A program made the translations under genes and the position numbers. From positions 1 to 64,000 of the forward strand of contig JANYIQ010000227.1 in NCBI GenBank assembly GCA_025362575.1: a stretch of 64,000 nucleotides of DNA, read 5' to 3'. Origin of the DNA: Bacteroidia bacterium. GTDB taxonomy: Bacteria > Bacteroidota > Bacteroidia > B-17B0 > Aurantibacillaceae. The notes under the pieces were generated by a model. It had not been told where the DNA came from, did no database searches, and saw only the letters and a program-made list of their open reading frames with translations. Positions 30,564 to 58,746 of the stretch are shown piece after piece (positions within the stretch are counted from its first letter, which is position 1; each line of letters begins with the position of its first letter).

Positions 30564-32342
30564 ATGAGTTCTGAAAAATGTAATAAACCAAACTGCAACT
30601 GTTCTTGCCACGAACCTTTAGAAAATGCTATCGGCCATAAAAAAGAACACGATGGCGGTCGTCGCGATTTTTTAAAATATGTTGGTTTAGGTGCTGTTGG
30701 TTTAGGATTAGGTCCTGCCGTTTCTTATTGGTTACAAGAGCAGGGAAAAATAAATGAGATTATAAAAAATCCAGCCATCATTAAAGGCAAAGCAAATCGT
30801 TTTACAATTTTGCACACTTCGGATATTCACGGACAATTAGATATACACGATGAATTTTTTTGGGAGAATGGCAAACCCGTTTACAAAAAACGCGGAGGCT
30901 TTGCTACATTAAAAACAATGGTGGAAGAATTACGAAAACAAAATCCTTTAAATACTTTATTGGTAGATGGTGGCGATTGTTTTCAGGGAAGCGCCATGGC
31001 ATCTTTAACGATGGGAACAGCAATTGTGCCACTGGCCAATAAATTAAATTACGATCTGGTTCTTCCGGGTAACTGGGAAGTAGCTTATGGTAAACAAATG
31101 TTGCTGCACGACATGAATAATTACACGGCTGCAAAAGTTTGTGCGAACATGTATGATAATGATGATCTTGATCACGACCTGATGTTTCCGCCTTACCAAA
31201 TTTTTAATTTGGGTGGAACAAGGATTGGTTTTATTGGTTATAACGATCCGCTCACTCCTGTTCGTCAGTCGCCGGCATACTCAAACGGAATTAAATTTAC
31301 CAAGCCCGAAAAGAACATGGAGAAATACGTGAAACTATTGCGCGAAGAAAAAAAGTGCGATATGGTTTTTGCACTAACACATATGGGTTTATCTCAACAA
31401 GTGCATCTCGCCAATCAAAAATGTTCTGAAGGTGTTGATTATATTTTAGGAGCCGATACGCATGAACGTGTGCGCGAACCACTGCAAGGTAAGTATAGCA
31501 AGGTTACTGAGCCGGGAGCATTTGCCTCATTTGTTGGAAAATTGGATATTGTTATTGAAGACGGAAAAATAAAAGACGAAGTATATGAGTTGCTGGAAGT
31601 AGATCCTGAAAAATATGCCGAAGATCCGGACATGAAACACAGTGTTGAGAAAGCAAAAAAACCTTTCAAAAAAATATTGAACGAAGTTTTGGGCCAGAGT
31701 AAAACGCCGCTGTTGCGTTATTACATTATTGAAACCCCAATGGACAATTTAATTACCGACGCTGTTATGTGGAAATTTAAAACCGACATAGCTGTATCCA
31801 ACGGTTTCAGATTTTGTCCGCCATTGGTTCCCGATCCAAAAACAGGATTGGCAGATATTACCCGTGAATATTTGTGGAGCATGTTACCGGTGAACTCAGA
31901 AGTAAAAACGGCCGACGTAAAAGGAAAACAAATTTTAAATTGGTTAGAGAAGGAATTAGAGAATGCTTTCTCAAAAGATGCCAGCAAACGTTTTGGCGGA
32001 TGGTTCGTTCGTTTTAACGGCATGCAGGTAACTTTTACTATTGGAAACGAAAAGGGAAAACGCGTACAACAAGTTTGCATTAAGAACGAAGTATTAGATC
32101 CTGAAAGAACATATACTATGGTTGCTTGCGAAAGAGATGGCGACCCCGATAACGTTTTGTGCCGGATGTTGAACGTGCATAATCCGGTAAGTCAGGGAAT
32201 ATTATTACACAGCGTACTCGAAGATTATTTGGCAGAATTCTCACCGGTATCGCCAAAAATTGAAGGGCGTGCCATTGCAACCGATGCCTCTCCCGAACTC
32301 CTTACACAAGCTTTAGCCGGCATCAACTACCAATTCAGATAA
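30564..32342 (+). CDS. SoxB-like Tat-exported metallophosphoesterase/thiosulfohydrolase-family protein
   Basis: GGRRDFLKYVG Tat motif, HTSDIHGQLD, VDGGDCFQGSAMASLTMG, GNWEVAYG; 5'-nucleotidase-type C-terminal domain. Confidence 0.75.
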   Translation: MSSEKCNKPNCNCSCHEPLENAIGHKKEHDGGRRDFLKYVGLGAVGLGLGPAVSYWLQEQGKINEIIKNPAIIKGKANRFTILHTSDIHGQLDIHDEFFWENGKPVYKKRGGFATLKTMVEELRKQNPLNTLLVDGGDCFQGSAMASLTMGTAIVPLANKLNYDLVLPGNWEVAYGKQMLLHDMNNYTAAKVCANMYDNDDLDHDLMFPPYQIFNLGGTRIGFIGYNDPLTPVRQSPAYSNGIKFTKPEKNMEKYVKLLREEKKCDMVFALTHMGLSQQVHLANQKCSEGVDYILGADTHERVREPLQGKYSKVTEPGAFASFVGKLDIVIEDGKIKDEVYELLEVDPEKYAEDPDMKHSVEKAKKPFKKILNEVLGQSKTPLLRYYIIETPMDNLITDAVMWKFKTDIAVSNGFRFCPPLVPDPKTGLADITREYLWSMLPVNSEVKTADVKGKQILNWLEKELENAFSKDASKRFGGWFVRFNGMQVTFTIGNEKGKRVQQVCIKNEVLDPERTYTMVACERDGDPDNVLCRMLNVHNPVSQGILLHSVLEDYLAEFSPVSPKIEGRAIATDASPELLTQALAGINYQFR

Positions 32343-34034
32343 ATGAAAAAAATTAATCCATCCGTCATTGCGAGAGTGGCACGACCGAAGCGATCTCTCA
32401 TAAAGATCATATCTTCATTATTTCTGCTCATTATTTCATCGCAATTAGTTTTTGCTCAAAAAAAAACAACTATTCTCCCCATCATTCCTCAGCCTTCTGA
32501 AATTTCAGTTCTGGATGGAAGTTTTGTTCTGAGTTCACAAACCAAATTAGTTTTGAATGATGCTTCATTAAAGAACGAAGCTCAGATACTAAATGATTTT
32601 CTGATCAAAAATTATGGTATTGCCTTACAGGTTGTTTCTCAAGTTCCACCGTCAGGGAATTGCATTCAGTTTGAAAAACCCGATTGGGAAGCCGGCTGGC
32701 CTGAAAATTATCATTTAGATATCGATGAAAAACACATTACGATCTTAGCTGAAGGAAAAGGTGCGGGATTTTTTTACGGACTGCAATCCCTGTTTCAATT
32801 GATGCCCGTTGTGGCTCACGCACCAAACAAGATGGCGCCTAACAGCACAATTTCAATTCCATGTCTTCATATAAAAGATTCTCCAAAATATAGCTGGCGA
32901 GGTATGCATCTGGATGTTTGCCGCCATTTCTTCCCAAAAGAATTCATTAAAAAATACATCGATCTTTTAGCAATGTATAAGTTCAATACTTTTCATTGGC
33001 ACTTAACCGAAGATCAGGGCTGGCGCATCGAAATAAAAAAATATCCGAAGCTTACAGAAATTGGTGCCTATAGAAACGGATCCACCATTGGCTTGGTAAA
33101 AGATAAAAAATTTGATAACGTTCGTTACGGCGGATTCTATACTCAGGAAGACATTAAAGAAGTTGTAGCGTACGCATCCGAGCGTTATATAACCATTGTT
33201 CCTGAAATTGAAATGCCCGGGCATTCGGTTGCAGCCATTGCATCTTATCCGTATCTATCTTGCAGTGGAAAACAAATTGAAGTAGAAAAAGCATGGGGTG
33301 TTTTTGATGATGTGTATTGCCCAAAAGAAGAGACCTTTACGTTTTTACAAGATGTGTTAACTGAAGTGATCGCGTTATTTCCCGGAAAATATATTCATAT
33401 TGGTGGTGATGAGTGCCCCAAAGAAAGCTGGAAAAAATGCGTGAATTGCCAGGCCTTAATAAAAAAAGAAGGCTTAAAAGATGAACACGAATTGCAAAGT
33501 TATTTTATTCGGCGCATCGAAAAATTTGTGAACTCAAAAGGAAAACAAATTATTGGCTGGGATGAAATTTTAGAAGGAGGTCTTGCTCCAAATGCTTCTG
33601 TAATGAGTTGGCGCGGAACTGAAGGCGGTATTGCTGCAGCTAAACAAAAACATTTTGTAGTGATGAGTCCGGGTAAGCCCTGCTATTTCGATCATTATCA
33701 GAGCAAAGACAAAAGCAAAGAACCTCTGGCCATTGGCGGTTTCAATCCACTGGATTCTGTTTACAATTACGATCCCACTCCGAAAGTTCTTAGTTTAGAA
33801 GAGCAAAAATACATCATGGGTGCTCAGGGTAACGTTTGGACCGAATACATCAATACCGAAGAGCAGGTAGAATATATGGCAGTTCCTAGAATGTGTGCTT
33901 TGGCGGAAGCGCTATGGACACCTCGAGAGAACAAGAACTATACTAATTTCATTGCGCGCTTAAAACAGAACAGCAAATTATTAGATAGAATGAATGTTAA
34001 CTATGCCAAACATTTTTTAGTGAATAAAAAATAG
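32343..34034 (+). CDS. GH20 beta-N-acetylhexosaminidase
   Basis: RGMHLDVCRHFF, FHWHLTEDQGWRIEIKKYP, HIGGDECPK. Confidence 0.95.
   Translation: MKKINPSVIARVARPKRSLIKIISSLFLLIISSQLVFAQKKTTILPIIPQPSEISVLDGSFVLSSQTKLVLNDASLKNEAQILNDFLIKNYGIALQVVSQVPPSGNCIQFEKPDWEAGWPENYHLDIDEKHITILAEGKGAGFFYGLQSLFQLMPVVAHAPNKMAPNSTISIPCLHIKDSPKYSWRGMHLDVCRHFFPKEFIKKYIDLLAMYKFNTFHWHLTEDQGWRIEIKKYPKLTEIGAYRNGSTIGLVKDKKFDNVRYGGFYTQEDIKEVVAYASERYITIVPEIEMPGHSVAAIASYPYLSCSGKQIEVEKAWGVFDDVYCPKEETFTFLQDVLTEVIALFPGKYIHIGGDECPKESWKKCVNCQALIKKEGLKDEHELQSYFIRRIEKFVNSKGKQIIGWDEILEGGLAPNASVMSWRGTEGGIAAAKQKHFVVMSPGKPCYFDHYQSKDKSKEPLAIGGFNPLDSVYNYDPTPKVLSLEEQKYIMGAQGNVWTEYINTEEQVEYMAVPRMCALAEALWTPRENKNYTNFIARLKQNSKLLDRMNVNYAKHFLVNKK
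32361..32400. repeat. GTCATTGCGA...GAAGCGATCTC-type element inside the GH20 signal peptide coding region
   Basis: tccgtcattgcgagagtggcacgaccgaagcgatctctca; related copy at 34039-34099. Confidence 0.7.
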
Positions 34035-34038
34035 GGCT

Positions 34039-34099
34039 GCGTCATTGCGACCGCAGGGAAGCAATCTGCACTTTTGACTGCTTCGTTCCTCGCTTGACG
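34039..34099. repeat. GTCATTGCGA...GAAGCAATC palindromic element
   Basis: Left arm GTCATTGCGACCGCAGGGAAGCAATC; right arm GACTGCTTCGTTCCTCGCTTGACG. Confidence 0.75.
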
Positions 34100-34122: not shown

Positions 34123-35103
34123 ATGAGTACAAGAAGGAATTTTTTAAAACTCTCTGCTTTCACTGCCGGTTTGTTTACAATTAATAAAAGCAAGGCGATT
34201 GAAAACATAGCAAGATCCAATGCCAAACAAATTAAACCTGTGGTTATTTCGACTTGGAGTCACGGAATGGCGGCCAATGAAGGCGCCTGGAAGGTTTTAT
34301 CATCGAACGGAACAGCCTTAGATGCTGTAGAAAAAGGAGTAATGGTAACCGAAGATGATCTTACGAATTTAAGTGTTGGTCTTGGTGGTTTACCTGATCG
34401 CGATGGGCACGTTACTTTAGATGCCAGCATTATGGATGAAAAAGGAAGATGTGCCGGAGTTGCTTTTTTAGAAAGAATAAAACATCCAATAAGTGTGGCA
34501 AGAATGGTAATGGAAAAAACACCTCACGTTTTAATGGTAGGAGAAGGAGCACAGAAATTTGCACTTGACAATGGATTCAAACTGGAATCAAAAGAACTTA
34601 CACCCGAAGCAGATAAAGCATACAAAGAGTGGCTGAAAAAAAGTGAATATAAACCTGTTATTAATATTGAGAATCACGATACCATTGGCATGGTTGCTTT
34701 GGATGCACATGGCAATTTATCTGGCTCTTGCACAACAAGCGGACTTGCTTACAAAATGCACGGCCGCGTTGGAGATTCGCCTATCATTGGTGCCGGAATG
34801 TATGTAGATAATGAAGTTGGAGCCGCTTGCGCTACAGGCTTAGGCGAAACCGTTCTCAAAATTTGTGGCTCGTATCAGGTAGTTGAATTCATGCGACAAG
34901 GTTTATCGCCCGAAGAAGCTTGCAAAAAAACAGTTGAACGGTTGATCAAAAAAAGTCCTAATTACAAAGATGTGCAAGTTGGTTTTTTAGCTTTGAATAA
35001 AAACGGCGAACACGGAGCCTATTCTTTACAAAAAGGATTTAACTACGCGCTCTATACTCCGGAGAACGGCAATAAATTATTTGACGCAAAAAGTTTCATT
35101 TGA
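34123..35103 (+). CDS. N4-(beta-N-acetylglucosaminyl)-L-asparaginase (glycosylasparaginase)
   Basis: TRRNFLKLSAF Tat-like signal, NHDTIGMVALD autocleavage motif, GDSPIIGAGMYVDNEVGAACATGLGE. Confidence 0.9.
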   Translation: MSTRRNFLKLSAFTAGLFTINKSKAIENIARSNAKQIKPVVISTWSHGMAANEGAWKVLSSNGTALDAVEKGVMVTEDDLTNLSVGLGGLPDRDGHVTLDASIMDEKGRCAGVAFLERIKHPISVARMVMEKTPHVLMVGEGAQKFALDNGFKLESKELTPEADKAYKEWLKKSEYKPVINIENHDTIGMVALDAHGNLSGSCTTSGLAYKMHGRVGDSPIIGAGMYVDNEVGAACATGLGETVLKICGSYQVVEFMRQGLSPEEACKKTVERLIKKSPNYKDVQVGFLALNKNGEHGAYSLQKGFNYALYTPENGNKLFDAKSFI

Positions 35104-58203: not shown

Positions 58204-58701
58204 TCACGAAACCCGTTTTCCCAAAATTATCAGATCCCTTTCTACTCCATCCATATTGGCTACTTTAGGAAAGTGAGCCCATTTTTCGAAACCAAAAGCA
58301 TAAAATAATTTCAAGCTGGGTTCATTGTGTCCGAAAATAAAACCAAGCAAATTATTTACTTTTAAAGAAGGTGAAACCTCAATTGCTTTTTGCAGACAAA
58401 TTTTTCCGAGTCCTTTGCCTCTGAATTTTTCTTCCAGATAAATGCTTACTTCAACCGTTCCGTCATAAGCTGGCCTTCCATAAAACGAATTGAAACTCAT
58501 CCAGCCCGCGTATTCACCATCGGCCAATACAAGCCACAGTGGCCGGCGATCGGGCGAATGCGATACAAACCAGCCTTCTTTGCTCGCCGTGTTAACAGGT
58601 TCCAGATCGGCCGTTACCAAACGCGAAGCAATGGTTGAATTGTAGGTGGCTACAATTTTAGGCAGATCATTTAATACAGCATTTATAAATTCTATTGTCA
58701 T
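58204..58701 (-). CDS. GNAT family N-acetyltransferase (phosphinothricin acetyltransferase-like)
   Basis: GWMSFNSFYGRPAYDGTVEVSIYLEEKFRGKGLGKICLQKAIE. Confidence 0.9.
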   Translation of the reverse strand: MTIEFINAVLNDLPKIVATYNSTIASRLVTADLEPVNTASKEGWFVSHSPDRRPLWLVLADGEYAGWMSFNSFYGRPAYDGTVEVSIYLEEKFRGKGLGKICLQKAIEVSPSLKVNNLLGFIFGHNEPSLKLFYAFGFEKWAHFPKVANMDGVERDLIILGKRVS

Positions 58702-58746
58702 CCTGAGGCTTGTGGTAAGCTTATCGAACCATATCGAAAGCTAAAA

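Follow-up and report, generated by a model that had tools for sequence, protein, structure and literature searches.

CGTC-tagged REP elements at both edges of a GH20 gene in a Bacteroidia bacterium: probable tolerated insertion, with one copy inside the predicted signal peptide

Introduction

The window analysed here, a stretch of 64,000 nucleotides from a Bacteroidia bacterium (contig JANYIQ010000227.1), contains a beta-hexosaminidase gene with a short palindromic repeat inside its leader codons and related sequence just beyond its stop. An earlier note on this DNA proposed that the repeat had been co-opted into an export signal. The question is whether the leader owes its function to the repeat or merely tolerates it.

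Repeats of this kind have been met inside genes before. The CGTC-tagged REP superfamily, found in five phyla including the Bacteroidetes (Di Nocera et al. 2013, PMC3733652), has no dedicated transposase gene flanked by the repeat, and its members are sometimes intragenic, at the N-terminus; such N-terminal REPs were reported from many species, with many suspected of being mis-annotated, and the intragenic CGTC repeats of R. conorii were equated with RPE-4 and RPE-6 (PMC3733652). Rickettsia is also known for palindromic inserts lying in frame in ORFs (reviewed in PMC10969869), and a Yersinia palindromic sequence, a MITE, is described in the work of Delihas (2007), as summarised in the review PMC2229807, as part of the YPO1552 signal peptide.

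Results

The GH20 gene and its operon

The gene occupies 32343..34034 (+) and encodes 563 aa with Pfam matches to Glyco_hydro_20 (1.8e-126) and Glyco_hydro_20b (4.9e-20); the catalytic domain (PF00728) scores 422.7 bits against a cut-off of 22.3, which places the protein in GH20, and its homologs all come from Bacteroidota-type genomes. The operon is compact, with metallophosphatase, GH20 and asparaginase genes in tight order: the stop of the upstream 5'-nucleotidase/metallophosphatase gene (30564..32342, +) directly abuts the GH20 ATG, and an Asparaginase_2 family gene, identified from the ORF list, Pfam and the relatives' junction, follows at 34123..35103 (+). The first 39 codons, including that for the +1 Gln (MKKINPSVIARVARPKRSLIKIISSLFLLIISSQLVFAQ; 32343..32459, +), are predicted to encode a Sec-type signal peptide, a reading on which composition and orthologs agree.

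A dispersed family of CGTC-tagged REPs

Within the window, exact copies of GTCATTGCGA occur only at 32364 and 34041; the count of the 10-mer alone with one mismatch allowed is not above chance there. The genome-wide count suggested in the earlier note was made in two ways: the full motif GTCATTGCGAN{5,25}GAAGCNATC has 45 strict copies in the 4.32 Mb genome, with none for the reversed-pattern control, and the covariance model finds 50. The strict motif is present in 38 of the 87 genomes of the host's family.

Aligned copies share the constant frame CGTC-ATTGC-GA-[variable core]-GAA-GC(A/G)AT-C, in a unit of roughly 27-45 nt. The base preceding GTC is C in 96 of 98 copies and T in the other 2, both intact copies of the window being CGTC. 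ATTGC pairs with GC(A/G)AT to form a 5 bp outer stem, followed by an internal GA/GAA loop and one or two inner pairs, or more, many cores being longer. Columns 5-36 and 6-35 are invariant A-U and U-A, while the inner pair covaries among G-C, A-U and C-G. Of 63 distinct cores, 55 have complementary first and last bases, as against a mean of 29.8 and a maximum of 46 in shuffles, and the covariation score is 0.182 against 0.091 for shuffled alignments, a value reached by none of 500 shuffles; both tests are inflated by kinship among the sequences. The outer pairing and the covarying core together make a single unit a REP hairpin by itself.

The copies are dispersed, mainly intergenic near ORF 3' ends and often inverted dimers. 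Beside the 25 Y1_Tnp loci of the genus the covariance model matched no REP, and no association of the REP with a RAYT was found. By its tag, its first stem pairs, its dispersal and its lack of a flanking transposase, features described for the published family, the element is a CGTC-tagged REP. Searching Rfam with it gave a single sub-threshold match (E=0.13), and a full-text literature search for the motif returned no relevant paper.

Other repeats were noticed on the way. A repeat-rich, low-coding stretch of this genome (L170:1-3000 and L171, G000:C85) holds eight or more REPs of the GCGATAGC class, all in one orientation and embedded in a larger diverged repeat. The sequence TGTCATCCTGA, at 58696-58706 of the window and at four sites with one mismatch (five sites against 0.65 expected by shuffling), may be where members of a further REP-like family, with a TGTC tag, begin. 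A third palindromic repeat, CCTCTCC...GGAGAGGG...GGGTGAGG, occurs at 20 places in this genome and is present in six of seven relatives checked.

The copy within the leader

The 5' copy, at 32363..32397 (+), begins 20 nt downstream of the first base of the GH20 ATG. Motif, translation and covariance model identify it as a complete single unit, of class G[GA]GAGG[TC]ACGACC, that encodes VIARVARPKRS in frame as codons 8-18; its score of 40.2 bits is that of a copy belonging to the model's training set. The motif which the earlier note had placed at 32361-32400, within the first 20 codons, is thus real and in frame, though it ends at about 32397 and is a whole REP unit, not a half-element. The note was right that this copy supplies R, R, K and R ahead of the hydrophobic core: these residues lie in the n-region, whose net charge is +7 by a simple hydropathy cut. 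The core itself, IISSLFLLII, and the LVFAQ end both lie outside the REP.

Removing 33 nt in silico leaves MKKINPSLIKIISSLFLLIISSQLVFAQ, in which the n-region is still charged and the core unchanged. A standard leader remains after excision, which argues that the insert is tolerated and lends no support to a need for it.

Sequence to the right of this REP (32396-32450) is able to base-pair with the element (CATCGCAATTAG), yet its scores do not support a decayed second arm: its reverse complement was matched as well against the expected partner class by 438 of 2000 shuffles, the best class reached 26 of 2000 over 20 comparisons for the window, and the covariance model had no match there.

Start codon and comparison with relatives

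Initiation downstream of the element was considered. Between the REP and the hydrophobic core there is no in-frame ATG, GTG or TTG; the sole alternative start, GTG at codon 12, lies inside the REP, so that REP residues are in the leader whichever of the two is used. The annotated start also matches in position that of the relatives. In three syntenic relatives of the same genus the GH20 ATG follows the upstream stop by 7 nt (L112), 1 nt (L116) and 0 nt (L117), as against 0 nt in the window, the contexts being TAA-7nt-ATG, TAG-g-ATG and TAG-ATG among the relatives and TAA-ATG here. This makes the ATG at 32343 most probably the original start.

Comparison of ortholog leader lengths gave a clear difference: the signal peptides of genus relatives, the nearest of which are only ~70-80% identical, run to ~18-20 residues up to the +1 Gln and lack the element, against 39 in the window. 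The element is missing from all 95 GH20 homologs whose start could be resolved, and every one of them has a shorter leader; a crude hydropathy measure puts their median n-region at 4 residues with a charge of +2, and that of the window gene at 21 residues and +7. The REP, at 11-12 codons, accounts for part of the excess of ~20 codons over genus relatives, ~9 of which it does not explain. Since syntenic relatives have short leaders without the element, the 5' REP appears to have been inserted in frame inside the signal-peptide coding sequence.

The pair downstream of the gene

Beyond the stop, at 34040..34099, lies a pair of inverted REPs, REPIN/BIME-like, identified from the fold and the covariance model and absent in seven relatives. 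The left REP (34040..34068, +) is intact and scores 41.5 bits, again as a training member; the right (34074..34099, -; CGTCAAGCGAGGAACGAAGCAGTC) is decayed, with 9.6 bits and E=1, and in the fold its partner is the left arm. For the segment 34037-34102 a hairpin fold is obtained, at -22.3 kcal/mol as RNA (z -2.57), with 2 of 200 shuffles as good. The full imperfect palindrome that had been described at 34039-34099 is borne out by the fold, with the refinement that two REPs, head to head, make it up, the one on the right being decayed. In the seven relatives the GH20-asparaginase junction is ~1-14 nt long and without the element, against 88 nt here. Five of seven congeners (G054-G058) have no strict copy of the REP at all, and the other two (G052 and G053) have copies at other places. 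On this comparative evidence, both window copies are taken as lineage-specific insertions.

Other signal peptides with palindromic repeats

Intragenic REPs are rare in this genome: 2 of ~45 copies, both at signal peptides. The second is a single REP in the signal peptide of a TonB-dependent receptor (L179:1223-3739, -), whose leader has 48 residues against 20-21 in six orthologs and whose start lies just after an upstream terminator T-run, as in its orthologs. There the REP is read in another frame, giving SLRGRYDRSN in place of the VIARVARPKRS of GH20, so no particular peptide has been kept. REP dimers at two other loci (L174 and L177) overlap long ORFs, but an intragenic reading was dropped, the ATG being likely to lie downstream. 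Among 53 REP copies from five related genomes we found no further convincing intragenic case.

The 87 genomes were also screened for an ATG (ATGA) closely followed by an in-frame REP, the forward orientation being followed to ORF level and near-duplicates from the repeat arrays of G025, G043 and G014 being removed by hand from the exact-match list. The screen gave 35 in-frame strings, of which 33 were examined, the other two being copies of this genome that lie between genes; besides the window gene, only one of the 33 (L306, the same locus as L319) continues as a long ORF. This gene (L319, G060:C83) encodes a TonB receptor of another genus with a complete REP pair inside its signal peptide, whose in-frame excision would leave MRKLHIILLVICSLATAQ. 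Its 93%-identical ortholog (L320, G066:C37) has a different palindromic repeat, one with 34 copies in its genome, at nearly the same spot; relative to the strongest hydrophobic stretch this insert falls on the opposite side, and it adds the neutral, glycine-containing SPLFWRGAGGE. Three further orthologs of the two have plain leaders.

Discussion

What is directly supported is the multi-copy family, its absence at these positions in relatives, the conserved start, the in-frame position and the recurrence in other signal peptides. Both elements are missing from related species, so this is most probably selfish DNA of a known kind, REP DNA, whose insertion at both edges of a gene in a tightly packed operon has been tolerated, and not a purpose-built export signal. 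Two CGTC-tagged REP copies would have entered the edges of the GH20 gene in this lineage, mobilised, presumably, by some transposase acting in trans. The 5' single unit would have gone in frame into n-region codons, lengthening a segment that has to bear charge but tolerates sequence change; the hydrophobic core and cleavage site would have been left untouched, allowing the gene to survive. At the other edge the inverted pair would have widened the GH20-asparaginase junction, and may give the mRNA of the operon a hairpin there. The protein is probably still exported, and the insertion roughly neutral. Against this reading stand the ~9 leader codons that the REP does not explain and the lack of a REP beside any Y1 transposase gene of the genus; the nearest relatives, at ~70-80% identity, also fall short of a strain-level comparison.

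Other readings have to be weighed against this one. The co-option put forward in the earlier note, in which the REP-encoded Arg/Lys stretch was selected for improving or redirecting GH20 export, draws on the four basic residues placed just ahead of the core and on the four signal peptides of the family that have palindromic inserts; yet the 95 homologs manage without the element, the excised leader is still charged with the same core, the TonB-dependent receptor of this genome uses another frame, and the L320 insert sits opposite, across the strongest hydrophobic stretch, and adds a neutral segment. We did not uphold the proposal and regard it as unlikely. Nor do we favour a REP lying in 5' untranslated sequence, with the ancestral ATG at 32400 (now ATA), a fortuitous frame upstream and initiation at the non-canonical AUA or elsewhere. 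A peptide starting at 32400 (IKIISSLFLLIISSQLVFAQ) matches the relatives' signal peptides in length, an ATT stands at the comparable codon of L179, and N-terminal REPs are often mis-annotated (PMC3733652), so that loss of a start codon after the REP (ATG to ATA or ATT) was attractive in both genes. Synteny, however, puts the native start ahead of the REP, 0-7 nt beyond the stop of the preceding gene in the relatives and at 32343 here, and the L179 start just after its terminator T-run agrees with that of its orthologs; start-codon loss was rejected, and an untranslated REP is quite improbable.

The position of the 5' REP, 20 nt from the first base of the ATG, would also suit a regulatory mRNA hairpin controlling GH20 translation, and a role in post-transcriptional control has been proposed for REPs close to 5' ends (PMC3733652). 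Alone, though, this REP folds no better than shuffles (RNA z 0.11, DNA z 0.91), the 141 nt around it reach only z -1.53, and the element is not conserved, all of which makes such a control very improbable. Tolerated insertion accordingly remains our preferred reading. A wider proposal, that palindromic repeats in this Bacteroidota family land recurrently and by preference in signal-peptide codons, some inserts supplying the charged region, and that mobile repeats repeatedly re-make export signals, strikes us as doubtful; the screen was aimed at N-termini and so is not enough on its own to establish that signal peptides are preferred. It was suggested by four genes for exported proteins, two in this genome and two orthologs in another genus with different repeats.

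The window family resembles the published CGTC-tagged REPs in its CGTC/TGTC tag, its short stem starting with A-T and T-A, and its occurrence as single units and inverted dimers, mostly beside ORF 3' ends; the published stem is 8-9 bp with a loop of 4-5 nt, and here a 5 bp stem is followed by an internal GA/GAA loop, with an inner stem that varies. GTAG REPs and REPINs with their RAYTs likewise have inverted REP pairs and short hairpins, but the tag here is CGTC with no repeat-flanked RAYT/Y1 gene, and the family falls outside that group. Rickettsia palindromic elements are similar as palindromic repeats in frame within ORFs; classical RPEs, however, are 105-146 bp long and confined to Rickettsia, whereas these units are ~27-45 nt, with rare intragenic copies at signal peptides, and are not classical RPEs. 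In the Yersinia MITE, as the review presents it, a mobile palindrome again contributes part of a signal peptide, but that element is 168 bp and provides hydrophobic residues for a proposed new gene, whereas the REP in the GH20 gene, 35 nt long, lengthens the n-region of an enzyme that is old and conserved.

Precedents thus exist for palindromes in ORFs and in signal peptides; the present case is a further one of that kind, in which, usefully, orthologs fix the likely start codon. The result is a set of clean comparative cases, with the same start and the same operon, with and without a mobile palindrome inside the export signal. They suggest that signal peptides may be a safe harbour for REP insertion within genes, and they open to test the question of whether secretion is tuned by such inserts or the inserts are neutral. 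The strongest lead is the pair of TonB receptors L319 and L320, orthologs whose signal peptide holds a different repeat in each.
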